64,000 nucleotides of DNA from Nucisporomicrobium flavum (GTDB taxonomy: Bacteria > Actinomycetota > Actinomycetes > Mycobacteriales > Micromonosporaceae): contig NZ_JADMLH010000024.1 in the NCBI RefSeq assembly GCF_016464385.1, forward strand, positions 1 to 64,000, in the 5' to 3' direction. Shown piece by piece: positions 32,980 through 47,790 of this stretch. Both the position numbers and the translations under genes were made by a program. The stretch's first letter is position 1. The number at the start of each line of letters is the position of its first letter. Below the pieces are notes generated by a model that saw nothing but the letters and a program-made list of their open reading frames with translations, did not search any database and was not told the DNA's origin.

Positions 32980-33019
32980 CAGAGACCCGCCGCCGTCGGC
33001 CGTGTGAACCGCACTATTT

Positions 33020-33060: not shown

Positions 33061-33069
33061 AAGAGTGTG

Positions 33070-33984
33070 TTAGATACCTCGTCCGCGTTTGTGCAGGGCG
33101 GAGAGCACATTCTCGACCTTCACCGCGCCGGTCATGGCCGCGAGCGCGATCGCCGTACGCGGTTCCTTCCAGTTCGCGCGCACCGCCTCCTTGCTGAACT
33201 GCCAGGCCTGCGACCGGTTGCCGGTGGCCGCGGACCAGCAGGCGAGCTGTCCGTAGACGCGCGCCGCGCCGGGCCGGCAGCCGCTGATCTCCGGATGACG
33301 TTGCATCATCCAGCGCAGGGAGGAGATCTTCGTGGCGTATTCGTACGCATAGTGCGAGGTCCGGCCCCACAGCACCCGGACGAGCGGCTCGTCGAGGTGC
33401 ACGATCGGCGCGCGCCGGGCCGCCCGCAGCAGCAGGTCCCAGTCCTCGTTCTGACTGCCGGGCGCGTCCTCGGCCACGAGCCCGATCGCGTCCTCGTGCA
33501 GCGCCTCCCGGCGGACCAGGAACGACGAGGAGTGCAGCATCGCCATCCGGGAGCGGGCCAGCTCGTCGACCGTGACCCGGCTGCGCCCGGCCAGCCGTGG
33601 CGTGCACTTGCCCTCGTACTCGACCTCGATCGCACAGGTGGCGAACTCGGCGTCCGGCTCGGCCACCAGCGCGGCGACCTGGCGGCGCAGCTTGTCGGGG
33701 TCCCAGCGGTCGTCGTCGTCGCAGAACGCCACGAGCTCGGTGTCCAGCGCCAGGATGCCGGTGTTGCGCGCGCCCGCCAGCCCGGACGTACGCCAGTTCG
33801 TCAGCACCAGCACCTGGGTGCCCTCGGTGGAGGCGAGCAGGTAGTCGGGCTCGGTCTGGTCGTACACGACGACGACCTTGACCTCGCCGGGGTAGCGCTG
33901 GCCGCGTACCGAGGCGATCGCCTTGCGGACCAGCTCGGGGCGGTTGCGGGTGGGGATCACAACGCCGACGGACGGCCAGTTCAT
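33070..33984 (-). CDS. Glycosyltransferase family 2
   Basis: Inverting GT-A glycosyltransferase, 304 residues. It opens with VGVVIPTRNRPELVRKAI and has the nucleotide/metal motif FCDDDDRWDP, then NEDWDLLLR as probable base region. Donor and acceptor are unknown. Its start (ATG 33984) shares a base with the stop of the sulfotransferase gene upstream (TGATG), so the two are coupled. The natural reading is that it adds a sugar to the glycan made by the adjacent locus. Confidence 0.87.
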   Translation of the reverse strand: MNWPSVGVVIPTRNRPELVRKAIASVRGQRYPGEVKVVVVYDQTEPDYLLASTEGTQVLVLTNWRTSGLAGARNTGILALDTELVAFCDDDDRWDPDKLRRQVAALVAEPDAEFATCAIEVEYEGKCTPRLAGRSRVTVDELARSRMAMLHSSSFLVRREALHEDAIGLVAEDAPGSQNEDWDLLLRAARRAPIVHLDEPLVRVLWGRTSHYAYEYATKISSLRWMMQRHPEISGCRPGAARVYGQLACWSAATGNRSQAWQFSKEAVRANWKEPRTAIALAAMTGAVKVENVLSALHKRGRGI

Positions 33985-34934
33985 CACGCCTCCTGGGGTG
34001 CTTCTGCGGGGTTGAGCGGGTACCCGTACGCGCGCAGCATCGGCGCGCACACCGCGCCGACGAGCCGCCGCTGGCTGCTGGGGAGCGAGCGCACCCAGGC
34101 GTCGTCGCGGCGCAGGGGCAGCCGGCCGACCGTGAAGCGCATGGGGTTGCCCGCGGCGCTGTGGCCCACGCCGAGGTCCGCGTACCCGTCACCGAGGAAG
34201 CTCAGGTCGGCCTCGCCGGCCGGGACGCCCGCGTAGTCGGCGAGCTCGCGCAGGGCGCCGCGCGGGTCCGTGAGGAACTGCTCGTAGCGGATCCGCTTCA
34301 CCGGCACGCCGCGGCGGGCGAGCAGACCGAACGCCGCGTTGTGCGCGTTCCACAGCAGGGCCGAGCGGCCGGGGGAGTAGCGGGTCATCTCGTCGCTGCC
34401 GTCGGTCTCCGGCCGGGAGATGGTCTTGGTCCAGGAGTACGCGACCCCGCGGGCGTCCCGGACGACGTGCACCACGCGCAGGTCCACGTCCTCCGCCCAG
34501 CGCAGCACGTGAGCGAGCGCGCTGTGCTTGGAGGAGTCGACGACCACCTCGGCGCCGGAAACTTCGGCGGCGGCGGCGTACACGCGGGCGTAGAAGCCGG
34601 CGTACTCGCGGACGTCGGCGAGCTGGGCCGGGGGCAGGGTCGCGGCGGCGAGACGGGGGATGAAACGGGTGCGTTCGACGGCGTTGCGCAGCGCGTGGAT
34701 GCGGTCGACGTCGACGTTGTGCCAGCCGCCGTACGCCCGCTCGCCGACCCGCCGCCAGAACGTGCAGGCCGCGAACCGTGCGCCGCAGCCGCACCGCTCG
34801 TTGTCCCGGATGTCGCGCTGCCAGAGGTGGACGATCTCGCCGAGCGCGCACACCGAGGGCAGCTGACCGAGCAGGCGCTCCACGAGCGTCGTTCCGCTTC
34901 GCCCTAATCCGCCCAGATATACAACGCGTGCCAC
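33984..34934 (-). CDS. PAPS-dependent sulfotransferase
   Basis: A 316-residue sulfotransferase. The 5'-phosphosulfate loop is GLGRSGTTLVERLLG, and the 3'-phosphate region is RVVHVVRDARGVAYSW with Ser/Arg. It lacks a signal or membrane segment and so acts in the cytoplasm, presumably on a lipid-linked or nucleotide-linked glycan. A CGCGARF Cys pair and later Cys residues might bind metal. The start is GTG at 34934 after AAGGTGGG. It is coupled to the GT2 gene and is distinct from the second sulfotransferase at 39486-40364. Confidence 0.87.
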   Translation of the reverse strand: MARVVYLGGLGRSGTTLVERLLGQLPSVCALGEIVHLWQRDIRDNERCGCGARFAACTFWRRVGERAYGGWHNVDVDRIHALRNAVERTRFIPRLAAATLPPAQLADVREYAGFYARVYAAAAEVSGAEVVVDSSKHSALAHVLRWAEDVDLRVVHVVRDARGVAYSWTKTISRPETDGSDEMTRYSPGRSALLWNAHNAAFGLLARRGVPVKRIRYEQFLTDPRGALRELADYAGVPAGEADLSFLGDGYADLGVGHSAAGNPMRFTVGRLPLRRDDAWVRSLPSSQRRLVGAVCAPMLRAYGYPLNPAEAPQEA

Positions 34935-34948
34935 TTCTGCCCACCTTC

Positions 34949-34980
34949 GCTCGTTTCGCTCCTATAACGAGCGAACGAGC
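34949..34980. promoter_or_regulatory. Inverted repeat in the divergent sulfotransferase / WecG gap
   Basis: gctcgtttcgctc and cgagcgaacgagc form an imperfect dyad (one-base offset) around ctataa. TATAAC at 34963-34968 could be a -10 for the plus-strand glycosyltransferase. An operator controlling both divergent genes is plausible. Confidence 0.45.
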
Positions 34981-34994
34981 TGGAAGGAGGCGCG

Positions 34995-35774
34995 ATGTCC
35001 ATCGAGGCTTTCGACCGCGTCCACCTCGACGGGACCGGGTTCGACCCGATCACCGAAGGGGAGGTGGTCGCGCTGGTCCGCGAGGCGATCGCGGCCGGTC
35101 GCGGGGGCCGGATCCTCACCCCGAACATCGACATCATGCGGCAGGCGCAGGGCGATCCGGAGGTGCGCGGGTACCTCGCCGACGCGGACCTGATCGTCGC
35201 CGACGGCATGCCGCTGGTCTGGGCCAGCCGGCTGAGCGGCACGCCGCTGCCCGAGCGCGTCGCGGGGAGCAGCCTGGTCTGGTCGCTGTCGCGCGGGCTC
35301 GGCCACGACGGCCGGTCGGTCTTCGTGATCGGGGGTACGCCGGCAGCCGACGGCGTGACCGACGGTGCGACCCGAGCCGCGGACCGGCTCGCCGCCGAGT
35401 GTGAGGGGCTGCGCGTCGCCGGCACGCTCTGCCCCGCCTTCGGCTTCGAGCGGGACGAGGCGGCGTACGCGGACTTCTGCAGCAAGGTCGCCGGCGCCGA
35501 GCCGGACATGGTCTTCGTCGGCCTGGGCTTCCCCAAGCAGGAAGCCGTCATCACCCGGCTGCGCGCGCTCATGCCGCGGGCGTGGTTCATCGGCTGCGGG
35601 GCGGCGGTCAACTTCGTCGCCGGGGACGTGGACCGGGCGCCGCGGTGGATGCAGCGGACCGGCCTCGAGTGGGCGCACCGGCTCGGCACCGAACCGCGGC
35701 GGCTCGCGGGGCGCTATCTCAAGCACGACGCCCCGTACGCGCTGCGGCTGCTCGCCCAGGCGCGCCGCCGCTAA
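34995..35774 (+). CDS. WecG/TagA/CpsF-family glycosyltransferase (GT26)
   Basis: A 259-residue GT26 enzyme. Such enzymes typically add ManNAc or a related sugar to an undecaprenyl-linked GlcNAc, an early step in wall or exopolysaccharide assembly. The motifs TPNIDIMRQA, ADGMPLVWASR and VGLGFPKQE are characteristic. No transmembrane segment is seen; family members bind the membrane peripherally. ATG 34995 follows GGAAGGAGG. It diverges from the sulfotransferase/GT2 pair. The initiating phosphoglycosyltransferase that should act before it is not in this window. Confidence 0.88.
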   Translation: MSIEAFDRVHLDGTGFDPITEGEVVALVREAIAAGRGGRILTPNIDIMRQAQGDPEVRGYLADADLIVADGMPLVWASRLSGTPLPERVAGSSLVWSLSRGLGHDGRSVFVIGGTPAADGVTDGATRAADRLAAECEGLRVAGTLCPAFGFERDEAAYADFCSKVAGAEPDMVFVGLGFPKQEAVITRLRALMPRAWFIGCGAAVNFVAGDVDRAPRWMQRTGLEWAHRLGTEPRRLAGRYLKHDAPYALRLLAQARRR

Positions 35775-35809
35775 CAAGACGGACGTACGGTTTGGGTTAG
35801 GGTGGCGGC

Positions 35810-36187
35810 ATGGCATTCACGTTCGAGCGTCTCCACCATGTCCTGCTGGCCATCCCGCCCGGCGGCGAGGACGTCGCCCGCGCCTTCTACGGCGGCGTCC
35901 TCGGCATGACCGAGCTGGCGAAGCCGGAGTCACTGCGGCAGCGCGGCGGCTGCTGGTTCCGTGGGGGCGGCTGGGAGGTGCACCTGGGCGTCGAGAAGGA
36001 CTTCGTGGCCGCGCGCAAGGCGCACCCGGGCGTCCTCGTCGACGACCTCGACGCCCTGGCCGCCGCGCTGAGCGAGGCCGGGCGGCCGGTGGACTGGGAT
36101 CCGGACTTCCCGGGCCACCGCCGCCTCTACTCGTTCGACGACCACGGCAACCGGCTCGAGTTCCTGCAACCGCTTTCCGCGGAATGA
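35810..36187 (+). CDS. VOC (glyoxalase-like) family protein
   Basis: A 125-residue protein with two beta-alpha-beta-beta-beta modules. It has LHHVLLAIPPG at the start, FYGGVLGM, VHLGVEKDF and the C-terminal DDHGNRLEFLQP, whose Glu is a typical metal ligand. His/Glu placement fits a metal-dependent VOC enzyme, but the substrate is unknown. The ATG 35810 is preceded by only weak Shine-Dalgarno sequence. It sits between WecG and the convergent GH26-like gene and has no obvious role in glycan synthesis. Confidence 0.82.
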   Translation: MAFTFERLHHVLLAIPPGGEDVARAFYGGVLGMTELAKPESLRQRGGCWFRGGGWEVHLGVEKDFVAARKAHPGVLVDDLDALAAALSEAGRPVDWDPDFPGHRRLYSFDDHGNRLEFLQPLSAE

Positions 36188-36197
36188 CAAAGGCCGG

Positions 36198-37196
36198 TCA
36201 CTGCGGGTTGAAGTACGGGTCCTTCGTCAGCCGGGTGAACGCCTTGAACGCCGGCCGGTCCCCGGCGAGCTGGAACTGCTGCTTCGGCCCGTTGCCCTCC
36301 GGATCGGACTCGAAGTAGACGACCGCCTTGATCTGCGGGTTGGCCTTGAACGTGCGCTGCGCGTCCCGCAGCCACGCCGCCCGGCCGGCCGAGCCCCACG
36401 CCTTGGCCACGCCGAACTCGCCGATGATGACGGGCTTCGGCCGCTGCGCCGCCCAGGTGAGGAACGGGCCCATCAGCTGCCCGATCGGCTGGAACAGGTT
36501 GCCGGCGTACACGTCGACGCAGGTCCAGTCGACCTGGTCGTCGCCGGGGTAGAACGCCGGGGCGTCGCCGCGGATGAACCCCTCCGCGGTGGGACACCAC
36601 ACCCACGAGACGTTCTTCACCCGCTCCTGCGCGAAGATGCCGCGGATGTGCTTGTACGCGGCGATGTAGTCCTCGCCGGACCACATCGTCGCCCGCAGGT
36701 TGGGCCGGTCCATCTCCCAGCGCACCCGCAGCAGCAGCGGCTTTTTCACCTTGCGGATCGCTTTGGCCTGCTTGCGGATCAGCCGGTCGTGCTCGCCCGC
36801 GGTGATCGAGCGGTTGTCCCCGGTCGCCCAGCTGACCATCAGCGTCGCGCCCTGGTCCAGCAGGTCGGCGTCGGACTCGGTGCCGACCATCTGCTCGAAC
36901 CGGCGGTACGTGTTGACGATGTCCAGCCGCCGGCCGAGGTCGTCCTCGAGCCCGTCGACCGCCTGGAGGCGGCCCTCGTGGGTCAACTCGTCCGGCTTGA
37001 TCCACGCGCCGACGTACGCGCCCTCGGCGGGCGCCTCGAACGGTCCCGCCTCGAACGGTCCCGGGTTCACCGCGACGGCGACCGGCGGGCTGGTCAGGTC
37101 GGGTGACGGCGTCGGCTCGGGCTCGGCCCGCCGGTGCGAGGTGCAGCCGGCGAGCACGAGCGCGACGACGCCCAGGAGGGCGACAGGGCGGCGCAC
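36198..37196 (-). CDS. GH26-like glycoside hydrolase lipoprotein
   Basis: A 332-residue extracellular lipoprotein: signal with lipobox LAGC (lipidated Cys18), a Pro-rich linker to about residue 55, then a TIM-barrel glycosidase domain. The likely acid/base Glu is E161 in RVRWEMDRPN and the likely nucleophile is E260 in VIIGEFG. This is the clan GH-A arrangement, closest by eye to family 26 (beta-mannanase-like). The start is GTG at 37196, six bases after the methyltransferase stop. It is the last gene of the exopolysaccharide operon and probably trims or releases the polymer at the cell surface. Confidence 0.8.
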   Translation of the reverse strand: MRRPVALLGVVALVLAGCTSHRRAEPEPTPSPDLTSPPVAVAVNPGPFEAGPFEAPAEGAYVGAWIKPDELTHEGRLQAVDGLEDDLGRRLDIVNTYRRFEQMVGTESDADLLDQGATLMVSWATGDNRSITAGEHDRLIRKQAKAIRKVKKPLLLRVRWEMDRPNLRATMWSGEDYIAAYKHIRGIFAQERVKNVSWVWCPTAEGFIRGDAPAFYPGDDQVDWTCVDVYAGNLFQPIGQLMGPFLTWAAQRPKPVIIGEFGVAKAWGSAGRAAWLRDAQRTFKANPQIKAVVYFESDPEGNGPKQQFQLAGDRPAFKAFTRLTKDPYFNPQ

Positions 37197-37201
37197 GGCG
37201 G

Positions 37202-37933
37202 TTACTTCTTCCGGCGCGCCGTGTAGACGACGTTCACAGCGAAGCCGTCGGTGCCGGGCAGGGCCCGGGCCGCCGCGTCCGCCGCCCGGGCGAGCGGGTT
37301 CTTGTTCAGCGACTCGGTCAGCATCGAGAAGCCTCGCCGCTCGACGATCTCGAAGCCGTGCCGGGCCAGCAGCGCCTCGACGTCGGCGTGCGACAGCTCG
37401 GCGAACCAGCGCTGCCCGGAGTGCCGGCGCGCGCGCAGGTGCCGTACCGAGCCGGCGTTGCCGTGGTTCTCCACCACCAGCACGCCCGCGTCCCGGGTCG
37501 GCAGCGCCTTGGCGGCGAAGGCGATCGCCCGCTCGCGGACCGTCTCGTCCACGTTGAGCAGCAGTCGGAACATCGTGACGATCGCCGGGTGCCCGGCCGG
37601 CACGGGGTTCGGCACCGGGCCGTCCGCGGGGATCTGGTGCCACTGCGCCCGCGAGCCGACCTCCTCCGCCTTCGCCATCATCTCGGCCGAGGTGTCGTAG
37701 CCGTGCGCCTCCCGGACCAGCCCGTGCAGCGTCCGGATCGCCCGGCCCGTCCCGCAGGCGAAGTCGTGCTGCACCGGCTGCTTCGCCCCGAACTCGCGCT
37801 GCACGAGCTTGCGCAGGTACGCCTGCTGCCGCTCGTTGATCTGCGAGGCGTAGCTGTCCGGCGCGTACGTGACGTGCTCGTACTTGGCGACGGCGTCGGC
37901 GTCCTGGAACACCTTGGTGTATTCGGTGGTCAA
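37202..37933 (-). CDS. SAM-dependent methyltransferase
   Basis: A 243-residue class I methyltransferase. The SAM-binding motif I is degenerate-looking but recognisable (HDFACGTGRAIRTL), followed by GYDTSAEMMAKAEEV (acidic motif). The start is TTG at 37933, with AAGGAGG five bases before it. This TTG overlaps the stop of the flippase gene (TTGA). The acceptor is unknown. Given its place between flippase and glycosidase genes, it may methylate a sugar or lipid carrier of the exopolysaccharide. Confidence 0.82.
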   Translation of the reverse strand: MTTEYTKVFQDADAVAKYEHVTYAPDSYASQINERQQAYLRKLVQREFGAKQPVQHDFACGTGRAIRTLHGLVREAHGYDTSAEMMAKAEEVGSRAQWHQIPADGPVPNPVPAGHPAIVTMFRLLLNVDETVRERAIAFAAKALPTRDAGVLVVENHGNAGSVRHLRARRHSGQRWFAELSHADVEALLARHGFEIVERRGFSMLTESLNKNPLARAADAAARALPGTDGFAVNVVYTARRKK

Positions 37934-39489
37934 CCGGTCCTCCTTGACATGAGCTTGCGTGGCTTGAAGGCGTCGAGTGCGAGGGGGCGGCGCAGCAGCC
38001 AGGCGCCCGCGGCGAACGCGGGCACCGCCACGCCGGCCGCCAGCGCCAGACCGGTCGTGCCGGTCCCGGTCAGCACCGTCACGGCCCGGGGGAGTACGCC
38101 GAAGCAGGCCACCGACAGCGCCCCCGCAGCGAGCGTTCCCCGACCGAACGGGTGCAGCCGCGCCACCCGGCCCACCTGGACGAGCGGCAGCAGGTTGTTG
38201 GCGACCATGGCGCAGGCGAGCCCGATCGCGGCGCCGAGCGCGCCGTACCGGGGGATCAGCAGCACGTCGAGGCCGATCGTGACGACGAGCGCGACCAGGA
38301 CGTTGTAGAGGTTCCACGAGGTACGCCCGGCCATCGCGAGCACCATGTCGACCATGCCGCACCCGGTGGCGACGAGCATCGCGCAGGCCAGCACCACCAC
38401 GACGGGCGTACCGGCGACGTAGGACTCGCCGAACAGCCGCAGGTACAGCGGCGCGAAGAGGATGACCAGCAGGTTGATCGGCCAGGTCACCAGGACGAGC
38501 CAGCCCGTCGCGGTCTGGTAGAGGTGGTTCGCGCTCGCGCGGTCCCCGACGGCCAGGGCCTCGGCGAGGCGGGGCTGCACGGACTGCGAGATGCCCTGGT
38601 TGGCGAACTGGATCAGCACGACGAACCGGCCGGCGACCGCGTACACGGCGGCCGGGACGAGGCCGCCCAGCGCCGCCACGAGCAGCACGTCCACCCGCTG
38701 CAGGGCGAGCTGCGCGACGCTGGCGAGCGCGCGCGGGCCGGTGAACCGCCAGAAGTCCCGGCGCAGGTCGAGGCGTTCGCTGCGCCGGGTCCGGAACCGC
38801 TCCGGCTTGCCGGCCAGGTAGATCTTGCGCAGCGCGAGCGCGGCCAGGACCGTGACCGGCAGGTACGGCGCCACCCACGCGAGCGCGAACGCGGGCAGCG
38901 AGGCGCTGGTCCACATCGCCGCCGCCCCCGCCGCCCCGATGCACAGCAACTGCAGCGTGCTGCGCAGGACGCGGTCGAGGGTGACGGTGGGCCGCATCGC
39001 CTTGTACCCGCGGGTGGCGGTCAGCAGGGCGTCGGTCATCGCCTGCAACGGCAGGAACAGCGCCAGGACGCGCAGCCCGGCGATGTGCTCGTGGCGTACG
39101 TGCGGCGAGTCGGCGGCGGTGAGCCCGGCGATCGCGGGCGCGGCGAGCCACATGGCGACGCCGAGCACGACCGCCAGCACCAGCACGGGTGTCAGCCCGG
39201 TACGCAGGCACGCGCCGAGCAGGTGGTCGCGGCCGGTGGCGCGCAGCCGGGCCGGCCAGTACACCAGGCCCGTCTGGGTGCCGAGCTTCGCCAGACCGCC
39301 GACCAGCACGAACGCCGCGGTCGCCGCGAAGAACGCGCCGGCCTGCTCGGCGCCGAGGGCGCGCGCGACCACCCAGGTGACCACGACGCCCGTGCCGCCG
39401 GCCAGCGCGGACCCCACCATGTTGGCGAGACCCCCGCGGGCGACCCCTCGAGCCTTCGATGCGGTGGGGGCCTCGAGAGTGGCCGTCAC
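37930..39489 (-). CDS. Wzx-like oligosaccharide flippase
   Basis: A 519-residue MOP-superfamily membrane protein with about 12-14 hydrophobic segments and the N-terminal pattern of polysaccharide flippases (ARGGLANMVGSALAGGTGVV). It would move undecaprenyl-linked repeat units across the membrane. I take GTG 39489, which overlaps the stop of the sulfotransferase gene (GTGA). A GTG at 39522 would add eleven residues. The neighbouring Wzy- and Wzz-like genes fit a Wzx/Wzy-dependent pathway. Confidence 0.85.
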   Translation of the reverse strand: MTATLEAPTASKARGVARGGLANMVGSALAGGTGVVVTWVVARALGAEQAGAFFAATAAFVLVGGLAKLGTQTGLVYWPARLRATGRDHLLGACLRTGLTPVLVLAVVLGVAMWLAAPAIAGLTAADSPHVRHEHIAGLRVLALFLPLQAMTDALLTATRGYKAMRPTVTLDRVLRSTLQLLCIGAAGAAAMWTSASLPAFALAWVAPYLPVTVLAALALRKIYLAGKPERFRTRRSERLDLRRDFWRFTGPRALASVAQLALQRVDVLLVAALGGLVPAAVYAVAGRFVVLIQFANQGISQSVQPRLAEALAVGDRASANHLYQTATGWLVLVTWPINLLVILFAPLYLRLFGESYVAGTPVVVVLACAMLVATGCGMVDMVLAMAGRTSWNLYNVLVALVVTIGLDVLLIPRYGALGAAIGLACAMVANNLLPLVQVGRVARLHPFGRGTLAAGALSVACFGVLPRAVTVLTGTGTTGLALAAGVAVPAFAAGAWLLRRPLALDAFKPRKLMSRRTG

Positions 39490-40364
39490 GCTTGGCGCCA
39501 GATGGGTACGCGGCCCAGCCACGTGATCAAAGCGTCGTCGTGCGGCGCGTAGTGGTTGGTCAGCTCACGGCGGATCCCCGGGTCCATGTCGGACTGCCGG
39601 GGCCGGGCGTTGTGCCGCTCGAACTCCGGGTGCCCCAGGTTGATCGGCAGCCCGAGGAACGCGCAGACCTCGTCGTACACCTGCTCCGGCTGGCTGAAGA
39701 AGCGCTCGCTCTCCACCACGTGGATGCGTTCCCGGCCCACGTGCTGCGCCATGACGCTCAGGTAGCGGGCGTACTCGCCGCGGGCGCGGTAGGCGTGGTG
39801 CTGGTGGGCGAACGAGTAGTACTTCGGGTCCGCGGCGAGCATGTCCTCCTGGCGGTGCAGCCGCGCCGGTTCGAGCGCGAGCGCGTTGCCGAAGTCGTGC
39901 TCCGGTTCGAAGTCGCGGGCCACCTCATGGTGGTGCTGCGAGTACGCCCGCTCCACCGGGTCGCGGACCAGCACCACGAGCTTCGCCCCGGGCAGGTCCG
40001 CGGCGATCCGGGCGGCCGCCTGCGGGTGGTACATGTAGTACGGGCTCGACTCGAACGTCTGCGCCGGTACGCCGTGACGCTCGTACACCTTGTCGGCCTG
40101 GCGCTGCAGCGGGAAGTGCGCCTTGTACCAGGACATGCCGCGCTCGTACGAGACGTCGAAGTAGTGCACGCCCTTGTGCAGCACGGCCTTGAGCACCGCC
40201 GGGTGCTGCGACAGCGCCCGGTACAGCGACGTGGTGCCGCACCGCTGGCCGCCGCAGATGAGGAACGACGGGATCATCCGGCTGGGCGCGGTGAGCCGGC
40301 CGTACGACCTCGACCCGAGGTGCACGACGCGCTTGACCGGCGCGGGAACTTTGCGAACGTCCAT
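39486..40364 (-). CDS. PAPS-dependent sulfotransferase (domain 1 type)
   Basis: A 292-residue sulfotransferase resembling heparan- or glycolipid-type enzymes. The PAPS 5' loop is ICGGQRCGTTSLYRAL, the 3'-phosphate site is KLVVLVRDPVERAYSQ, and the FESSPYYMYHP segment is typical of bacterial glycan or nodulation-factor sulfotransferases. It is cytoplasmic. ATG 40364 shares its A with the stop of the phosphotransferase gene (TGATG), and its 3' end overlaps the flippase gene. Embedded in the exopolysaccharide operon, it is the strongest evidence that the repeat unit is sulfated. Confidence 0.88.
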   Translation of the reverse strand: MDVRKVPAPVKRVVHLGSRSYGRLTAPSRMIPSFLICGGQRCGTTSLYRALSQHPAVLKAVLHKGVHYFDVSYERGMSWYKAHFPLQRQADKVYERHGVPAQTFESSPYYMYHPQAAARIAADLPGAKLVVLVRDPVERAYSQHHHEVARDFEPEHDFGNALALEPARLHRQEDMLAADPKYYSFAHQHHAYRARGEYARYLSVMAQHVGRERIHVVESERFFSQPEQVYDEVCAFLGLPINLGHPEFERHNARPRQSDMDPGIRRELTNHYAPHDDALITWLGRVPIWRQA

Positions 40365-41590
40365 CAGAGTTGCTCGACCCTTCGGATCAGTACGGGCAGC
40401 AGCCACGTGCCGAGCACGCCCAGGCGCGCGCCGGCCTCGGCCTGCCGGTCGGTCAGGTAGCGCACGGCCAGGTCGACCAGGTACAGCAGCGCGGTCAGCT
40501 CCTGCGCGTCCGGCGCGACCCCGAACGGCTGGAGGAGCTCGCCGGCGCGGCGTACGGTCGCCTCCACCGCGCCCTCGGCGTCGCCGGAGGCCTGGATGCG
40601 GCGCTGCAGCTCGTGGTGGACCGCGTCGAAGCCGGTCGGCACGCCCTTGGTGAACCGTTCCCAGTCCCACACCAGCAGCGCGTCCGCGAGGTTCGCCATG
40701 TTCCACGGCGCCCAGTCGCCGTGCCAGGCGCCGTACCGCAGGGTGGTGTGACCGGCGTGCGTGGCCAGCAGCTCCGCGGCCGACGCCAGCGCGGCCCCCT
40801 CCGGCCGGTCCGCGACGGCCGTGAGGCGCCCGCGCAGCTCCGCCCAGTACGCGCTGCCGACCAGGCTCCCGCTCGTGTAGCCGCAGCACCCGGCGATGTC
40901 GAGCATGGCGGCGGTGAGCCGGCGCGGGGTCAGCGGCGCCCGCGGCAGCCACACCGGCAGCGCCGACTGGATGAGCACCTGCGAGCCGCGCCACACCCCG
41001 GCGTGCAGCACGCGCGGGACGGTCAGCTTGCTCAGGCCGACGGTCCCGAGCGCGGTCAGCGCCGCGGTCTCCGCCTTGACCAGGCGCTGGGTCAGCGGGC
41101 CGGTGCCCATCTTGCCGAAGCCGAAGGTCTCGCCCTCGGGGCTGATCAGCTGCAGCACCGGCTTGCGGTTGGCGCGCGCCGGTCCGATGTGGATGCTCAC
41201 CGACAGCTCGCGGCCCAGCGCCTCCCGCAGGTAGCCGTCGATGCTCCCGGCGGCCGGGCCGGTGATCCGGATCCGGTCGCGCAGCAGGACGCTGGAGGCG
41301 CCCGTCCGCAGCGCGGCCACGACGGCGTCCCGCTTGAGCCGGGCGGCGCGCGACTGCGGCTCGGCGTACCGGCGTACGGCCGCCGCGGAGACCCGGCGCG
41401 ACGTCGTGGGCACCAGCAGCCGGGGGCGGCGTGCGTCCGGGACGACCACGTACTCGGCGATCGCCTCGCCCCGCCGGTCCTCGGTGCTGCACGGCGCCGG
41501 ATAGAGCAGCTCGAGCACCTCGGCCAGGTACTGCGTACGCAGCGCCGAGTCGCCGGCGGTCAGCTCCGCCGGCGCGGTCTTAACGGGCAT
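40364..41590 (-). CDS. Aminoglycoside phosphotransferase-like kinase of the exopolysaccharide operon
   Basis: A 408-residue protein whose C-terminal half has the APH/choline-kinase catalytic loop WHGDWAPWN and the metal motif VWDWERF. The N-terminal ~130 residues show no motif I recognise. It probably phosphorylates a sugar, a lipid or another small molecule rather than an antibiotic, because it is locked between polymerase and sulfotransferase genes by an 11-bp overlap on one side and TGATG coupling on the other. The start is ATG 41590. The substrate is unknown. Confidence 0.75.
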   Translation of the reverse strand: MPVKTAPAELTAGDSALRTQYLAEVLELLYPAPCSTEDRRGEAIAEYVVVPDARRPRLLVPTTSRRVSAAAVRRYAEPQSRAARLKRDAVVAALRTGASSVLLRDRIRITGPAAGSIDGYLREALGRELSVSIHIGPARANRKPVLQLISPEGETFGFGKMGTGPLTQRLVKAETAALTALGTVGLSKLTVPRVLHAGVWRGSQVLIQSALPVWLPRAPLTPRRLTAAMLDIAGCCGYTSGSLVGSAYWAELRGRLTAVADRPEGAALASAAELLATHAGHTTLRYGAWHGDWAPWNMANLADALLVWDWERFTKGVPTGFDAVHHELQRRIQASGDAEGAVEATVRRAGELLQPFGVAPDAQELTALLYLVDLAVRYLTDRQAEAGARLGVLGTWLLPVLIRRVEQL

Positions 41591-42953
41591 CAGCGTCCCC
41601 CTCGAGTTGGTTGCGCCACAGCAGCGCGTAGGCCAGGAACATGAACGCCAGGGGGGTGGGGATCGCGTTGTACCAGAACATCGCGGTGAACGAGCTGACG
41701 ATGGCGGCGCCGGCTGCGATGCCGATCGGCGTACGGTCGCGCCGGAACCGCCACAAGCCGTAGCCGAAGAAACCCAGGTACGCGATCGTGCCGACGGCGC
41801 CGTGGGCGTACAGCAGCTGCCACAGCTGACCGTTGCCGCCGACGGTGAAGTTGCCGCAGCGCTCACAGCTGGCGCTCTCGCCGACCGTGATCGAGTTGCG
41901 GCCGCCGATGGTGTTGCGGGTGGACCCGTAGCCGATGACGGGCGAGTCGACGAAGCCGTCCACCGCACGTTGCACGAGGAACGAGCGCACGCCGTTGGAC
42001 TTGCCGTTGTCGAGCCGGGCGTCGACCACGTCGCCGAGGGGCGTGGCGATCAGGGCGACGACCAGCCCCACGGCGGCCAGCACCACGGCCGCGATGATCC
42101 AGAGCCGGCCCATCAGCACGTACCGGACGGCGACGTAGAGGACGACGACGCCGATGCCGATCCACAGTCCACGGTTCAGCGAGACCACCGCGGGGATCAC
42201 CGCGACCGCCAGGCACAGCACCGCGAGCAGCTTGGTCCCGGCGTTACGGGTCGCCCAGGCGGCCACCACGAGCCAGCCCATGAGCAGGCAGAAGTTGTTG
42301 CCCCAGGTGTTCGTGTAGCCCCACGGCGCGGCCGGGCGGGGCTTCTCGCCGCCGACCAGGTCCATGATCTGTGCCGCGTACGGGTGCACCAGCGACTGCA
42401 CGAAGCCCTTGGACCGTACGCCGCCCGGCAGCAGCCACTCGACCGGCGAGGTGAACTCGAACGTGCCGGCGAGGATGCCCAGCAGGCCGCCGGCGACGGT
42501 CACCACGAACAGCCAGCCGAGCAGCTTGACCAGGCGCCGCCGGGGCAGCTCGAGCTCGGTCAGGTTGCCGGTGTAGACGAGCAGGACGGTCAGGGCCGCG
42601 TACATGACGAGCCGGTAGATCACCGCGACCAGCCGGTCCGTCGCCGCCTCGGCCACCGTGCCGGCCGGGTCGGCGCCCAGCGCCGCGATGCTGATGACGA
42701 CCGCGGCCAGGAACAGCGCCCACCAGCCGAAGCCGGGCGGCAGCCGCAGCGGCCGTCCGGCTGCCCGCCGCCGGACCAGCAGCACCAGCATCGGCGCGGC
42801 CATGATCGGGAAGATCAGCACGCCCAGGCCGAGCGCCCACCACAGCGGGTACAGGGCCAGGATGCCCGCCACCGGCCAGGCCGGGAGCCGGGTGGGCCGC
42901 TCGGGTGCCGCGCTGTGCGCCGCCCGCTGCGTGCGGGGGACGACCAGGGTCAC
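41580..42953 (-). CDS. O-antigen ligase / Wzy-like polymerase
   Basis: A 457-residue polytopic membrane protein with about ten to twelve hydrophobic segments. A large extracytoplasmic loop lies between about residues 320 and 380 (around IGYGSTRNTIGGRNSITVG). That loop has the conserved GxG-type region and a CERCG cysteine pair. This is the Wzy/WaaL architecture, so it likely polymerises flipped repeat units. GTG 42953 overlaps the stop of the Wzz-like gene (GTGA). Its 3' end overlaps the kinase gene by 11 bp. Confidence 0.82.
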   Translation of the reverse strand: MTLVVPRTQRAAHSAAPERPTRLPAWPVAGILALYPLWWALGLGVLIFPIMAAPMLVLLVRRRAAGRPLRLPPGFGWWALFLAAVVISIAALGADPAGTVAEAATDRLVAVIYRLVMYAALTVLLVYTGNLTELELPRRRLVKLLGWLFVVTVAGGLLGILAGTFEFTSPVEWLLPGGVRSKGFVQSLVHPYAAQIMDLVGGEKPRPAAPWGYTNTWGNNFCLLMGWLVVAAWATRNAGTKLLAVLCLAVAVIPAVVSLNRGLWIGIGVVVLYVAVRYVLMGRLWIIAAVVLAAVGLVVALIATPLGDVVDARLDNGKSNGVRSFLVQRAVDGFVDSPVIGYGSTRNTIGGRNSITVGESASCERCGNFTVGGNGQLWQLLYAHGAVGTIAYLGFFGYGLWRFRRDRTPIGIAAGAAIVSSFTAMFWYNAIPTPLAFMFLAYALLWRNQLEGDADAR

Positions 42954-44704
42954 TTCTCGGCCGGCTTCTCGGGGCTCGAGGCGGCCTTCGGACCGCCGGC
43001 CGGCCTGGTACCGGTGGTCAGGTCGATCACCGCGGTGACCTCCTCGCTGCCGTCACCCTGGCGCGGCGGGCGGGCCGGCGGGCCGGTGGGGATCCGCATC
43101 GGCTGGGTGCGGTCGTCGTCGAGGACGGCCGTCTCGTCCGGCTTCTGCGCGCTGAGCGCCACCGCCGGCAGGTTGTCCGCCGCGGTGCTGCGGGCCATCC
43201 CGGTGAGGTGGGGCAGCACCACGGCGCCCAGCAGCGGCGTGCCGACCCGGCTCAGCTGCTCGGCCGCGTCCAGCAGCGCCGGACGCTTGGCGCGGCGCAG
43301 CTCGACCGCCAGGATCGCGGCGTCGGCGAGGCTGGCCAGGCTCTGCGCGTCGGCGCTGCTGCTGGTCGACGGGGCCTCGATGACGACGTACCCGGTCTGC
43401 TGGCGCAGGGCCTGCAGGGTGTCGCGCAGCCGCTGCGACTGCATCAGGCCGGCCGCGGTCGCCGCGCCGCCGGTGGTGATCACCCGCAGCGACGGGATCC
43501 GCGGGGTGCGCTGCATGGCCCGCTCCAGCCCGATCCGGCCGGCCAGCAGTTCGGAGAGGCCGGGCATCGCCGTGACCCCGAGCATCCGGGCCAGCGGCGC
43601 GGCGTCCACGACGCTGTCCGGCAGATGCGCGCCGACCAGGACCACGTCGCTGCCGGTACGCGCGAGCGCCGCGGCCAGGTTCGCGGCGACCAGCGTGGTC
43701 GACGAGCCCCGGCTGGCACCCGTGACGACGATGATCTGGTCGCCGGGGCTGAGGCTGGCCAGGATCTCGTTGCGCAGCCGGTTGAAGACCCGCCCGCCCG
43801 GCCCGTACGGCTGCAGCACGTCGTCGAAGCGCGGGGTGGTCCGCTCGTCCAGCGCCGCGAGCACCGGGATGCGCCCCCGGTCGCGGACGTCGGCCGCCGT
43901 CCGCAGGCGCCGGTCGAACCGCTCCCGCATGAACGCCAGCGCGAGCCCCGCGAGCAGCCCGAGCATCGTGCCGGTGGCGATGTTGAGCAGCGCGTTGGGG
44001 CTGGTCGGCTCCTCCGGCTCGCGGGCGTCGCTGATGATGCTGCCGGCGTCGACGGTCGCCGTGGTCAGCTCGTTGAGCTTGCCGGTCAGGTTGTTGAGCT
44101 GGTTCTGCGAGTTGCTGCGCAGGCTCTCCAGGTTGCTGCGGTCGGAGCTGCCGCTCGGCGCCTTGGCGAGCCGGCTGTTGATGCTGGTCAGGTTCGTGGT
44201 GAGCTGCCGGACCTTGAGGTTCAAGGTCTTGATCTTCTGGTCCAGCACCGAGCGGGCGGCCTCCTCGCGGTTGCGCAGGTACGCCTCCGCGAACGCGTGC
44301 GAGCCGGCCTGGGCGTCGCGCGGGTTGTCCGCCTCGAAGCTGATCACGAGGACCGTCGTGTTCGCCGGCACCTCGACCGACACGTCGTGCGCCAGCTCGA
44401 TCGGCGACACCGGCGATCGCAGCAGCGCCGCCGCCTTGGCGGCCACCGCGCCGGAGGGCACCAGCTGGGCCTCGGTGTCCAGGTTGATCGCGCCCTTGGT
44501 ACGCCCGCCGGACGCGTTGGTGTCCTGGTCGACGGCCTGCACGAGCACGGAGGTGGACGACTCGTAGACCCGTGGCAGCGCCTGCGTCACCGCGGCGCCG
44601 ATCCCGAGTCCGGCCCCGGTCGCGGCCAGCACCACCCACCAATGCCGGCGGAACACGCCCACGTAGTGCGAGAGGTCGGCGGTCACCGGGCGGGTTGGTT
44701 CCAT
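42950..44704 (-). CDS. Wzz-like chain-length protein fused to a degenerate BY-kinase domain
   Basis: A 584-residue protein with a Wzz domain between two membrane segments (about 21-41 and 238-258) and a long coiled-coil-prone periplasmic part (150-215). A cytoplasmic ParA/BY-kinase-like domain follows. The nucleotide motifs are eroded: the P-loop (329-337) reads GASRGSSTT without the invariant Lys, Walker A' (355-363) lacks its Asp, and Walker B (439-445) is YVVIEAP. The C-terminal tail has no tyrosine cluster. It probably sets chain length but is unlikely to be an active tyrosine kinase. I chose ATG 44704; GAAAGGG lies upstream at a longish spacing. Confidence 0.82.
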   Translation of the reverse strand: MEPTRPVTADLSHYVGVFRRHWWVVLAATGAGLGIGAAVTQALPRVYESSTSVLVQAVDQDTNASGGRTKGAINLDTEAQLVPSGAVAAKAAALLRSPVSPIELAHDVSVEVPANTTVLVISFEADNPRDAQAGSHAFAEAYLRNREEAARSVLDQKIKTLNLKVRQLTTNLTSINSRLAKAPSGSSDRSNLESLRSNSQNQLNNLTGKLNELTTATVDAGSIISDAREPEEPTSPNALLNIATGTMLGLLAGLALAFMRERFDRRLRTAADVRDRGRIPVLAALDERTTPRFDDVLQPYGPGGRVFNRLRNEILASLSPGDQIIVVTGASRGSSTTLVAANLAAALARTGSDVVLVGAHLPDSVVDAAPLARMLGVTAMPGLSELLAGRIGLERAMQRTPRIPSLRVITTGGAATAAGLMQSQRLRDTLQALRQQTGYVVIEAPSTSSSADAQSLASLADAAILAVELRRAKRPALLDAAEQLSRVGTPLLGAVVLPHLTGMARSTAADNLPAVALSAQKPDETAVLDDDRTQPMRIPTGPPARPPRQGDGSEEVTAVIDLTTGTRPAGGPKAASSPEKPAEK

Positions 44705-44812
44705 CGGTACGGCGGCCCTTTCGCAGGCGGAGTAGCGGGTCACGACGCGGGGGCCAGCCCCCGAGGGGTAAACGGCCCGTGCGCCGATGCGTAACTACTC
44801 CGCCGCGATCGG

Positions 44813-46336
44813 TTACTTCATCTCGGGCTCCACCCAGCCGCTGTCCACCAGGTACGCCAGCACGAGGTCGACGGCCTCCGGCACCGACATGTCCGTGGTG
44901 TCGAGGACCAGCTCGGCGTCGGTGGGCACCTCGTACGGGTCGTCGATGCCGGTCATGCCGCGCAGCTGGCCGGCGCGGGCGCGCGCGTACAGGCCCTTGC
45001 GGTCGCGCTGCTCGCACACCTCCAGCGGGGTCGCGACGTGCACGAGGATGAAGCCTGCCCCGGCCTCGGCGGCCATCTGCCGGACGGCGGCGCGGGCGTT
45101 CGCGTACGGCGCGATGGGACACGCGATCGCCATGCCGCGGTGCCGCGCCACCTCGGCCGCCACCCAGCCGATCCGCCGGACGTTGCGGTCCCGGTCGGCG
45201 CGGCTGAAGCCGAGGCCGGCGGAGAGCTCGCGGCGCACCACGTCGCCGTCGAGGAACGTGATGGTCCGCTCGCCGCTCTCCCGCAGCGTGTCGGCCAGGC
45301 CGCGGGCCACGGTGGACTTGCCGGAGCCGGAGAAGCCGGTGAAGAACACGACGAGCCCGCGGTGCCGGCGGGGCGGGCGCACCCGGGCCAGCTCCTTGGC
45401 GACCGCCGGCGGGGTGTGCCACTCCGGCAGCGGGAAGCCGCGGTCGAGCAGGTCGTTGATCTCGGCGGCGGACATCGCCAGGCGCCGGTTGCGCGGCGGG
45501 ATGTCGTCGCGCCAGCGCCACTGGCCGTCACGGTTGTCGTACGCGAGCTCGCGCGGCACGAGCACCCGCAGGCCGCCGCCGGAGAGCATGTCGCCGGTGG
45601 ACAGCACGTGCGTCACGCCGTACGCGGCGGCGACCCGGGCCCGCAGCAGCGCGTCGCGCATCTCGTCGCCGCGGGGGAGCAGCGGCACCGCGACGATGGT
45701 CGCGGGCGGCATCCGGTCGCGCGCGGCGAAGACCGAGCGGACCAGCGCCTCCGGCGGCAGGCCGTCGGGGCCGGGGCCGGTCACCGGGATGAAGATCAGC
45801 AGGTGGGCGGCGAGCGTGCGGGCCGCGTGCGCGATCTGCGCGAGCTGCGGGCGGTGCAGCGGCCGGTCGGCGATCACGCCCAGGACCCGGCCGGGCGGCA
45901 GCAGGGCCTTCACTTCCTCGGGGGTACGCCGCAGGCGCTGGAACGGCCCGTGCCCGCCGTCGCCCATCCGGCGCACCGTGCCACCGACGGCGGAGAGCCC
46001 GTCGGTGGTGGGCCACGCGTCACTCACCTCGATGGCCGCGACCGGTGCGCCCTCGGGGTCGGTGAGCACGACCGTCCGATGCAGCGGGTCGTCGAGGTCG
46101 AGCGCGGCGGCCATCTCGGCGGGGATCTCCAGCGTGACCGCGACCGGCCACGACGTCCCGTCGGCCAGCCGGCCGCGGCGGCGCAGCGCCTGCAGATCGG
46201 CCCGGCCCAGGAAACCGGTCAGCGGCGCGTACGCCCCCGAGAGCAGCAGCTCCAGGTCGGCCAGTTCGTGCGCGCGCGGCGTGTACGAGGGCGCGTCACG
46301 CAACACGTCCTCGGGCAGCACAGAACCGTCGTTCAC
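44813..46336 (-). CDS. Adenylyl-sulfate kinase with degenerate ATP-sulfurylase-like domain
   Basis: A 507-residue fusion. Residues 1-~315 follow the ATP-sulfurylase layout (PUA-like start with LLSGAYAPLTGFLGR). The catalytic QxRN and HxxH motifs are not conserved: the equivalent stretch at 152-164 reads LGVIADRPLHRPQ. The usual GRDHA is replaced by STGDM. Residues ~325-507 are an intact APS kinase with Walker A GFSGSGKS (334-341) and FLDGDVVRREL. It should make PAPS for the two sulfotransferases nearby from APS made elsewhere. GTG 46336 is preferred because GGGGGAG lies six bases upstream. It is first in the exopolysaccharide operon. Confidence 0.85.
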   Translation of the reverse strand: MNDGSVLPEDVLRDAPSYTPRAHELADLELLLSGAYAPLTGFLGRADLQALRRRGRLADGTSWPVAVTLEIPAEMAAALDLDDPLHRTVVLTDPEGAPVAAIEVSDAWPTTDGLSAVGGTVRRMGDGGHGPFQRLRRTPEEVKALLPPGRVLGVIADRPLHRPQLAQIAHAARTLAAHLLIFIPVTGPGPDGLPPEALVRSVFAARDRMPPATIVAVPLLPRGDEMRDALLRARVAAAYGVTHVLSTGDMLSGGGLRVLVPRELAYDNRDGQWRWRDDIPPRNRRLAMSAAEINDLLDRGFPLPEWHTPPAVAKELARVRPPRRHRGLVVFFTGFSGSGKSTVARGLADTLRESGERTITFLDGDVVRRELSAGLGFSRADRDRNVRRIGWVAAEVARHRGMAIACPIAPYANARAAVRQMAAEAGAGFILVHVATPLEVCEQRDRKGLYARARAGQLRGMTGIDDPYEVPTDAELVLDTTDMSVPEAVDLVLAYLVDSGWVEPEMK

Positions 46337-46342
46337 CAAAGA

Positions 46343-46349
46343 CTCCCCC
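46343..46349 (-). promoter_or_regulatory. Ribosome binding site fixing the APS kinase start
   Basis: GGGGGAG on the minus strand is six bases before GTG 46336 but only three before the in-frame TTG 46339, which favours the GTG. Confidence 0.65.
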
Positions 46350-46413
46350 TGCAGTGACTTGGAGGACAGTTTCGCAGCCGGACTCCACCGGGTCGAGCCG
46401 GGTCTGTGATCGA

Positions 46414-46427
46414 TCCGGCGCGCCGGA
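46414..46427. promoter_or_regulatory. Perfect 14-bp palindrome in the exopolysaccharide divergent promoter gap
   Basis: tccggcgcgccgga is self-complementary and lies mid-way between the divergent starts of the APS kinase operon and the GH26-like gene. It may be an operator for both. High G+C makes chance palindromes commoner, so confidence is modest. Confidence 0.4.
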
Positions 46428-46482
46428 CGTAACCCAGTCGGGTAGTCGACAAAACGGACTTAAGGTCGAATACTGGGCGATC

Positions 46483-47790
46483 GTGACACGTCGACGTCGT
46501 CCTCATCGCAGCCGGCTCCTGCACCTCGCCGCCATCACCACGGTCTTCACCATCTCGGCCGGGGCCACGCTCTCGTGGGCCTACACCGGCGGCGTTGACC
46601 AGATCGGCCTCCCGTACGGGCCCGGCCCGGTCGTGCTGCCAGGGCCGGCCGCCGCGACGAAGGGCCCCGGTTCCCGCCCCGAGCCGCCGGCCGTCGCGGA
46701 GCCCGGCGTACCCATGCTGCCCGGCGGTGCGATGCCGACCGGCTCGGCCACCGCGTCGCCGTCCACGTCGGCCCGGTCGGCGGCGCGGGCCACCGCGACC
46801 CCCGCGCCCGGCCTCGCGGCGCCCGGCGGGGGACCCTGCCGTACCGGCCGGAAGCTCGTCCCGACCTGCGGCATCCTCTGGGGCGTGGCGCCGGGGGCGT
46901 TCACGGACAGCCGCGGCAAACAGGCGCTGGCCCGCTTCGAGGAGAAGACGGAACGGCACCAGGACATCTACCACGCGTACCACCGGGGCAACACGCAGCT
47001 CTTCCCGACGAAGAGCGAGATCGCGATCGCGCGCGAACCCGGCCGCGAGCGCATCCTGTTCCTCAACTGGAAGCCGCGCGGCGCCTCCTGGGCGAAGATC
47101 GCCAAGGGCGACAAGGACACCGACAAGTTCCTCGACCGGCTCGCCGCCCACCTCAAGAACGACTTCCCGGAGCAGTTCTTCTTCACCGTCCACCACGAGG
47201 CGGAGGACAACGTCCGGGAGAAGGCCGGCTCGGGCTACACGGCCAAGGACTACGCGGCCATGTACCGCTACGTCGTCAAGCGCCTCCGCGCCCACGGCGC
47301 CGACAACATCGTGACCGTCCTGGTGCACATGGCGTACGTGCCGCACACCAGCCAGAAGTGGTTCTCGGACATGTACCCCGGCGACGACGTCGTGGACTGG
47401 ATCGGCTTCGACTCGTACGCGTACAGCGACCCCGGCTACGGCCACGGCGACTTCGCCGAGCTGCTGAACCGGCAGTCGTCGGCGCGACCGACGTGGCCCG
47501 GCTTCTACAACTGGGCCGTCGAACGGCACCCCGGCAAGCCGCTGATGGTGGCGGAGTGGGGCGTGTGGTCGTCGAAGAAGAACCCCGGCCACAAGGCGGA
47601 GTTCTACCAGGAGGTGGGCCGGCAGATCGGCCACTTCCCGGGCATCCGGGCGATGGTCCACTTCGACACCCCGCACAACCAGGAGGGGCGTGCCTCGTCG
47701 GTGGACGCGACCCCGGAGTCGCTGCGGGCGTACCGGAAGCTGGGCAAGCTGCCGATCTTCCAGGTGCAGGTGGCGCCGGCGTTGCCGTAG
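46483..47790 (+). CDS. Secreted GH26-like glycoside hydrolase
   Basis: A 435-residue protein with a signal or anchor segment (about residues 12-34) and a long Pro/Ala/Ser-rich linker (40-115). A TIM-barrel domain follows, with probable acid/base E239 in FTVHHEAEDN and nucleophile E358 in MVAEWGVWS. The architecture parallels the lipoprotein at 36198-37196 although the sequences have diverged. GTG 46483 is used and no strong ribosome binding site is seen. It diverges from the exopolysaccharide operon and so brackets it with a second glycan-acting exoenzyme, perhaps for remodelling or release of the polymer. Confidence 0.8.
   Translation: MTRRRRPHRSRLLHLAAITTVFTISAGATLSWAYTGGVDQIGLPYGPGPVVLPGPAAATKGPGSRPEPPAVAEPGVPMLPGGAMPTGSATASPSTSARSAARATATPAPGLAAPGGGPCRTGRKLVPTCGILWGVAPGAFTDSRGKQALARFEEKTERHQDIYHAYHRGNTQLFPTKSEIAIAREPGRERILFLNWKPRGASWAKIAKGDKDTDKFLDRLAAHLKNDFPEQFFFTVHHEAEDNVREKAGSGYTAKDYAAMYRYVVKRLRAHGADNIVTVLVHMAYVPHTSQKWFSDMYPGDDVVDWIGFDSYAYSDPGYGHGDFAELLNRQSSARPTWPGFYNWAVERHPGKPLMVAEWGVWSSKKNPGHKAEFYQEVGRQIGHFPGIRAMVHFDTPHNQEGRASSVDATPESLRAYRKLGKLPIFQVQVAPALP

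Follow-up and report, generated by a model that had tools for sequence, protein, structure and literature searches.

The stretch of DNA analysed here, called the window, consists of the first 64,000 nucleotides of contig NZ_JADMLH010000024.1 of Nucisporomicrobium flavum. Between positions 33,070 and 47,790 it carries a gene cluster which, judged from its sequence, is a polysaccharide cluster known from a relative as wps-1. The wps-1 cluster of Actinoplanes missouriensis (AMIS_7280-7380) was described together with AMIS_7390 in June 2026 (PMC13390465). The locus is real and widely conserved. With a probability of about 0.7, the wps-1 cluster, a phosphoglycosyltransferase (PGT) encoded beside cysQ, cysD and cysN, and the two-domain adenosine 5'-phosphosulfate (APS) kinase next to the cluster together make a sulfated polysaccharide of the spore matrix. 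Beyond the published account of wps-1, the present analysis brings a correction to the reading that the locus has its own supply of 3'-phosphoadenosine 5'-phosphosulfate (PAPS), a candidate PGT for the start of the chain, an additional GH26 member and a wider distribution (e.g. Glycomyces).

The wps-1 cluster: published mutants, conservation and distribution

The published cluster comprises wpsA (GT2 glycosyltransferase), wpsB (sulfotransferase), wpsC (GT26), wpsD (DUF4262), wpsE (GH26), wpsF (methyltransferase), wpsG (Wzx), wpsH (sulfotransferase), wpsI (kinase-like), wpsJ (Wzy) and wpsK (Wzz), followed by AMIS_7390 (PMC13390465). The same order is found in the window, with the AMIS_7390 orthologue adjoining wpsK, except that wpsD is replaced at its position by a glyoxalase-like open reading frame (ORF). 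The ten other wps genes are 72-90% identical to those of locus L034, and the APS kinase 85%. This locus is assigned to A. missouriensis because its DUF4262 protein matches the Pfam model at residues 27-152, which are the residues stated for WpsD (PMC13390465).

The initial annotation of the window, made from the letters alone, had proposed a Wzx/Wzy-made sulfated polymer that was undescribed and had its own PAPS supply. The first part remains the best reading of the gene set. Its GT2 and GT26 transferases, two sulfotransferases, methyltransferase, Wzx, Wzy and Wzz proteins, APS kinase and both GH26 proteins are recognised by Pfam, Wzy just below its cut-off (33070-46336, plus the second GH26-like exoenzyme at 46483-47790), and its APH-like kinase is supported by fold matches of its AlphaFold model. 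The claim of novelty falls, since wps-1 has been published with gene-by-gene mutants. Single deletion of wpsA, wpsC, wpsG, wpsH, wpsI, wpsJ or wpsK leads to squashed sporangia, deletions of wpsB, wpsE and wpsF have milder or different effects and that of wpsD none, and deletion of AMIS_7390 causes severe sporangium defects, a phenotype called "unexpected" by the authors, who propose a sulfated polysaccharide as the product (PMC13390465). The main text of that paper makes no mention of PAPS, of a phosphoglycosyltransferase or of AMIS_7400. Among open-licence full texts, no other paper was found that links Actinoplanes sulfotransferases to sporangia, or a PGT to cysQ.

Control of the cluster by TcrA was considered and rejected. 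The window has no exact TcrA box. Boxes with two mismatches number four, none of them inside the cluster, when chance alone would give 9.9, and the exact pattern was present in only one of 281 fetched loci. This absence in the window agrees with the published statement that wps-1 is not under TcrA (PMC13390465).

Conservation was assessed in two sets of fetched loci that share genomes. The named-record set holds the best 80 of 201 confirmed relatives obtained with WpsH as query, 71 of which exceeded 19 kb and were counted; 42 of 45 loci were counted in the second set by the same length. A gene was scored as present upon a match at 1e-8, each place being assigned to its best-scoring query, which removed cross-matches on wpsE seen in a first region map (e.g. 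in L059 and L062). On this basis, wpsI, wpsJ and wpsK occur in all 71 named loci, wpsG in 70-71, wpsA, wpsB and wpsC in 68 each, wpsF in 64 and wpsE in 48; wpsH, being the query, is present in 71/71 by selection. The second GH26 gene is found in 66 loci and the APS kinase gene in 46. Requiring coverage of half the protein changes only wpsG (70 and 41) and GalT and DeoR (17 and 15 of 42). The co-occurrence of the cluster genes exceeds chance, and conservation of the run as a block, set beforehand as a check, holds in the fetched loci. Since 23 of the 71 loci (e.g. Glycomyces) retain the second GH26 gene without a nearby APS kinase gene, versus three with the reverse, we propose this gene as an extra member of the wps cluster, linked to the block more tightly than the APS kinase. 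The glyoxalase-like ORF, present in 18/71 named loci and 4/42 of the second set, is variable and probably does not belong to the machine.

In each of the 67 genomes of the genus group of the window, its own among them, WpsH finds a match at 1.4e-156 or better and WpsJ one at 3.9e-107 or better, and wpsG to wpsJ were found together in 27 further genus groups among the fetched regions. Named records bearing the cluster, as drawn from the best 80 of 201 relatives, belong to Glycomyces, Stackebrandtia, Phytomonospora, Actinorhabdospora, Longispora, Catellatospora, Asanoa, Hamadaea, Phytohabitans, Pilimelia, Virgisporangium, Spirilliplanes, Couchioplanes, Rhizocola and Catelliglobosispora. Glycomyces, Catellatospora, Asanoa and Longispora are not known to form sporangia; a literature search gave no direct statement, genus by genus, on sporangia in these cluster-bearing genera. 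A strict link between cluster and sporangium is rejected as the whole story on account of these four genera. Because several bearers of the cluster are not known to form sporangia, the polymer probably serves more generally as a matrix or sheath associated with spores.

Absence of the block was followed in 12 APS-kinase regions fetched from genus groups g45, g46, g47, g48, g49, g56 and g66, chosen for weak or missing WpsH matches, and the wps block was found in none of the 12. In three regions (L077, L078 and L079) the APS kinase and DeoR genes are only 153-389 bp apart and the cluster is missing, as after a clean removal. In an APS kinase tree, the block-lacking rows are nested within the block-bearing ones, with two changes (bootstrap range 2-3), of which the strongly supported branches force one. 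One genome without the cluster has a single sulfotransferase gene between those for the APS kinase and DeoR (L089:10956-11831); its product is 52% like WpsH, and it is possibly a remnant or a replacement. A subset of genus group g45 (e.g. G174, G178, G223) has WpsH relatives at about 1e-93 and WpsJ relatives at 1e-98 to 1e-108, far closer matches than in the rest of that group, which we read as a divergent wps-like machine of its own. Genus group g55 is mixed: G352 has the cluster, and G351, G353 and G354 showed no match to WpsH.

A candidate initiating phosphoglycosyltransferase beside cysQ, cysD and cysN

It had been remarked that no initiating PGT is present at the locus and that part of the pathway must lie elsewhere. 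Both points are upheld: no Bac_transf initiating transferase is encoded in the window, the six sites of the genome all being on other contigs (WecA/TagO-type enzymes, PF00953, were not searched for), and a candidate was found. This is a 622-aa Bac_transf protein encoded on another contig, directly upstream of a cysQ-like gene, cysD and cysN. It passes the NCBIfam exopolysaccharide PGT model with 417.9 bits (cut-off 295.6); its scores with the glucose-type (327.7) and galactose-type (313.7) models are both below their own cut-offs.

The neighbourhood was compared in 80 cysD regions of other genomes, namely those nearest by CysD to the genome of the window among the matches listed. Five loci were set aside, two having a cysD without cysQ and three being second cysQDN copies without pth. 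Cluster status was set from the best WpsH and WpsJ E-values, regions having been seen for part of the genomes. The PGT gene is upstream of cysQ in 42/42 cluster-bearing genomes (g1, g32, g52, g57, g60, g62) and in 0/33 cluster-lacking ones (g45, g46, g47, g48, g49, g56, g61, g66); in the latter, pth lies 60-255 bp from cysQ in 32 of 33, and L275 gave no pth match. The five paralogues in the genome point in the same direction. The nearest one (58% over 467 aa, 2.5e-170; the next one 44% over 475 aa, 9.6e-113) is the PGT of a second wps-like cluster. On the basis of this 42/42 versus 0/33 distribution and of this closest paralogue, the PGT beside cysQ-cysD-cysN is proposed as the Wps-1 starter, and it is probably the missing one.

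The second wps-like cluster is self-contained and includes its own PGT (L197:5075-18773; C23:527074-540772 in the genome of the window). It encodes relatives of WpsK, WpsA, WpsJ, WpsG, WpsH and WpsI at 29-40% identity, and probably makes a second sulfated polymer, as far as its gene content tells. Elsewhere, a Sulfotransfer_3 protein (2e-44) is encoded about 2.4 kb from another Bac_transf PGT (L196:7006-11833; contig C9 of the same genome). Second cysD or cysQDN copies, away from pth and PGT, occur in L220, L221, L231, L233 and L240.

The cysQ-linked PGT might instead start a different polymer, such as the imp polymer, whose loss took place in the same lineages, wps-1 being started by another enzyme, for example of WecA/TagO type, and the position beside cysQDN being incidental. 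WecA/TagO products serve as substrates for GT26 enzymes of WecG/TagA type, the genome has six Bac_transf enzymes, and a flanking-gene tree (35 loci, quick method) shows four concordant changes at best, of which the well-supported branches force only one. Against this stand the nearest paralogue of the PGT, which serves inside a wps-like cluster, and the published grouping of WpsC with a glucosyltransferase (PMC13390465). Such an arrangement is considered less likely than the proposed role of the PGT in wps-1.

PAPS supply, proposed pathway and the case against it

The initial annotation had overlooked that its APS kinase forms the C-terminal half of a protein of 507 aa whose N-terminal half resembles ATP sulfurylase. 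No other APS kinase was found in the 9.02-Mb genome, and the N-terminal half of this protein is the sole ATP-sulfurylase-domain match there. The canonical QTRNPMHRAH (1i2d) reads IADRPLHRPQ in the window protein, and the change of QTRNPxHRAH to xADRPLHRPQ or close variants holds in 90/90 sequences (80 distinct). The Q, R and N of QxRN are thus all changed, the kinase half being intact; the order of the sulfurylase-like and kinase domains and the loss of QxRN were both confirmed. The protein is therefore predicted to be a two-domain APS kinase without sulfurylase function. Its best solved match, 3cr8 (4.7e-95), has the same fused halves and is presumably the two-domain enzyme of Thiobacillus denitrificans. 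A sulfurylase-like half without activity is described in the Entamoeba histolytica enzyme, to which that of T. denitrificans is named as similar, the absence of sulfurylase activity in the latter being cited from other work (PMC13213808). The motif loss in the window protein goes further than in these two enzymes.

This two-domain kinase is present in 353/354 genomes of the family and in 44/44 genus groups, and it persists where the cluster is gone. A dedicated PAPS supply at the locus is rejected: the enzyme is family-wide, its sulfurylase half is degenerate and CysDN is encoded on another contig. Since the sulfurylase motif is lost, APS should come from this CysDN, of which CysD is above NCBIfam cut-offs on contig C12 and CysN was seen as a partial frame. 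The CysH protein of the genome scores 220 bits with the APS-reductase model (cut-off 235), versus 174 with the PAPS-reductase model (cut-off 254), is above the general CysH cut-offs, and is encoded beside a protein of the nitrite/sulfite reductase family. It carries paired cysteines and CxxC, as do APS reductases. Because CysDN is present and CysH scores higher as an APS reductase, PAPS is probably not needed for cysteine synthesis. If CysH indeed uses APS, loss of the sole APS kinase would deprive WpsH of PAPS, which would explain the "unexpected" AMIS_7390 phenotype.

A different view, close to the framing of the published paper, is that the two-domain enzyme truly combines both activities of a PAPS synthase, or works mainly for cysteine synthesis, the mutant defect being a general effect on sulfur metabolism. 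Its near-universal presence in the family, the 411 bits obtained with the NCBIfam bifunctional model, albeit with a cut-off of 669, and the CysH scores, above the general and below the APS- and PAPS-specific cut-offs, agree with it. It is nevertheless unlikely, given the altered motif in every sequence aligned, the CysDN encoded elsewhere in the genome, and an AMIS_7390 mutant that is like the wild type by eye on both agars (PMC13390465).

In the pathway that we favour, the PGT encoded beside cysQ-cysD-cysN would place the first sugar on undecaprenyl phosphate, and WpsC and WpsA would lengthen the lipid-linked sugar. CysDN would yield APS, which the two-domain kinase (44813-46336) would convert to PAPS; with it, WpsH and WpsB would sulfate the lipid-linked repeat in the cytosol, CysQ removing the by-product 3'-phosphoadenosine 5'-phosphate (PAP). 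WpsF may add methyl and WpsI phosphate groups, after which Wzx would flip the repeat, Wzy and Wzz would polymerise it, and the GH26 enzymes would trim the chain outside the cell. The polymer would be a component of the matrix surrounding the spores (in A. missouriensis, the matrix of the sporangium). The deletion phenotypes of wpsA, wpsC, wpsG, wpsH, wpsI, wpsJ, wpsK and AMIS_7390 fit a PAPS supply that feeds WpsH (PMC13390465). A beta-1,4-linked repeat that contains glucose is at most plausible, because of the grouping of WpsC with a glucosyltransferase, the slight glucose lean of the PGT and the closeness of the GH26 proteins to an endoglucanase domain. At even odds, the pathway may be purposefully split, a starter PGT in one operon with CysDN and CysQ tying chain initiation to sulfate activation, the cluster and the PGT being gained or lost together in Micromonosporaceae. 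The polymer would then be a sulfated polysaccharide of the spore sheath, ancestral to the whole family and older than sporangia. With the roles assigned here to the PGT and the APS kinase, two questions raised by the published work, namely whether wps-1 makes a sulfated polymer and why loss of AMIS_7390 harms sporangia, each come down to a single gene.

Several observations weigh against this pathway. According to the authors of wps-1, sulfate in the polymer still awaits verification, deletion of wpsB only mildly affects the phenotype, and AMIS_7390 is transcribed differently from wps-1 (PMC13390465). The CysQ-like phosphatase is below the cut-offs of the CysQ models, and CysH is below both reductase-specific ones. 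The 42 and 33 genomes compared for the PGT are not independent and correspond to few events (1 to 4), and this sample, confined to the genomes nearest by CysD, does not reach basal genera with the cluster (e.g. Glycomyces). Among the 33, four (G223, G290, G224 and G267) have a closer WpsJ (Wzy) relative, at about 1e-97 to 1e-103, which probably reflects a divergent second machine; a related machine may thus persist there without this PGT. When the catalytic part alone is compared, another paralogue (60%) is nearly as close to the PGT as that of the second cluster (66%).

Lipids and antibiotics are also among the substrates of this broad sulfotransferase family, and the genome has Sulfotransfer_3 matches in eight reading frames. 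With sulfate in the polymer still a proposal, WpsB and WpsH might modify a small metabolite, a lipid or a protein and leave the polymer itself without sulfate, which is distinctly improbable: wpsB stays with the Wzx/Wzy run in 68/71 loci, where wpsH, the query, lies inside the run, the WpsH profile is closest, among specifically named solved proteins, to heparan sulfate sulfotransferases, and deletion of wpsH resembles that of wzx or wzy (PMC13390465).

Gene content, individual proteins and flanking genes

The eight-gene minus-strand run with short overlaps, reported initially, is retained. From the APS kinase gene to wpsE, the overlaps are of 4, 11, 1, 4, 19 and 4 bp, with one 108-bp gap between the APS kinase gene and wpsK; these figures depend on gene starts chosen in this analysis (e.g. 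for wpsA). The Wzx, Wzy and Wzz set is complete, Wzx and Wzz being above the Pfam cut-offs and Wzy_C below its own. The small glyoxalase-like ORF had escaped the initial annotation.

Table 1. Features of the wps-1 locus in the window (percentages are identities to A. missouriensis locus L034)
Feature	Position	Strand	Basis
wpsA, GT2 glycosyltransferase, 304 aa	33070..33984	-	Pfam Glycos_transf_2 2.2e-20 (frame 33070-34188); 90%
wpsB, predicted PAPS-dependent sulfotransferase, 316 aa	33984..34934	-	Pfam Sulfotransfer_3 5.7e-14 (frame 33984-34961); 78%
wpsC, GT26 WecG/TagA/CpsF glycosyltransferase, 259 aa	34995..35774	+	Pfam Glyco_tran_WecG 1.6e-51 (frame 34968-35774); 77%
Glyoxalase-like ORF at wpsD position	35810..36187	+	Pfam Glyoxalase 1.6e-4
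wpsE, GH26 exoenzyme, 335 aa	36198..37205	-	Pfam GH26 2.7e-4 (frame 36198-37643); lipoprotein-like N-terminus by eye
wpsF, S-adenosylmethionine (SAM) methyltransferase, 248 aa	37202..37948	-	Pfam Methyltransf_23 2.8e-6; 78%
wpsG, Wzx flippase, 519 aa	37930..39489	-	Pfam MatE 3.9e-11, Polysacc_synt 5.3e-9 (frame 37930-39564)
wpsH, heparan-sulfate-type sulfotransferase, 292 aa	39486..40364	-	Pfam Sulfotransfer_3/1 3e-14
wpsI, probable APH/FN3K-fold small-molecule kinase, 408 aa	40364..41590	-	motifs and AlphaFold model
wpsJ, Wzy polymerase, 457 aa	41580..42953	-	Pfam Wzy_C 1.3e-6, 28.8 bits (cut-off 31.7); 78%
wpsK, Wzz co-polymerase with degenerate BY-kinase half, 584 aa	42950..44704	-	Pfam Wzz 1.6e-8
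Two-domain APS kinase, AMIS_7390 orthologue, 507 aa	44813..46336	-	Pfam PUA_2, ATP-sulfurylase, APS_kinase 9.3e-55
Second GH26-like exoenzyme, 435 aa	46483..47790	+	Pfam GH26 4.9e-6 (frame 46138-47790); N-terminal hydrophobic stretch by eye

Among solved proteins, the WpsH profile finds 3rnl, a sulfotransferase without a specific name (1.9e-26), followed by heparan sulfate 3-O-sulfotransferases, starting at 8.7e-22. Its motifs GGQRCGTT and RDPVERA.S are invariant or nearly so in an alignment of 30 rows. Motifs for binding the 5'-phosphosulfate and the 3'-phosphate are present in the WpsH alignment and were recognised by eye in the WpsB sequence.

The sequence of WpsI itself has no Pfam match to APH, and a comparison with the sequences of solved proteins returned nothing at E 0.1. 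Among 52 aligned relatives, 12 match the APH model with E-values no higher than 1, the best being 8.1e-5, and the motifs HGDW.PWN and WD.ER are invariant in the 52 rows. Its AlphaFold model (pLDDT 86.6) matches, with a best Foldseek E of 1.4e-5, homoserine kinase, fructosamine-3-kinase (FN3K) and aminoglycoside phosphotransferases (APH). These fold matches favour a kinase of small molecules or sugars over a protein kinase as the identity of WpsI.

Both GH26 profiles have as their best solved match the GH26 domain of Endoglucanase H (2bv9), a Clostridium thermocellum lichenase, at 1.2e-27 for WpsE (14 sequences) and 8.9e-17 for the second protein; the Glu residues are aligned and the similarity is low. 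The two catalytic Glu residues of GH26 are present in both proteins: E164 and E263 of WpsE align with those of Endoglucanase H and are invariant in 14 rows, and E239 and E358 of the second protein are invariant in 16 rows. WpsK matches the NCBIfam model eps_transp_fam at 4.8e-25, below its cut-off. Its Walker-A loop is without Lys in all 72 readable relatives (of 77), and its last 60 residues contain no tyrosines, so that the half resembling a bacterial tyrosine kinase (BY-kinase) is likely a pseudo-kinase.

A parallel in gene content is the xss cluster for synechan of Synechocystis PCC 6803, which shares Wzx, Wzy and a polysaccharide co-polymerase (PCP) as well as two sulfotransferases of different subfamilies, and which makes a sulfated exopolysaccharide (PMC8205485). 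The xss cluster has its own priming transferase, XssP, among eight glycosyltransferases, whereas the locus in the window has two glycosyltransferases and its candidate PGT is encoded on another contig. Among bacteria, sulfated exopolysaccharides have been held to be cyanobacterial only (PMC8205485, PMC13390465). If the widely conserved wps-1 cluster makes a sulfated polymer, this trait would be common in a large group of soil actinomycetes.

Genes for GalT and a DeoR regulator (window 31022-33069) flank the cluster in the window as they flank wps-1, in Actinoplanes and in several other genera. By position they should be AMIS_7260 and AMIS_7270, deletion of which has no effect (PMC13390465). 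In several cluster-lacking genomes, these two genes remain beside the APS kinase gene.

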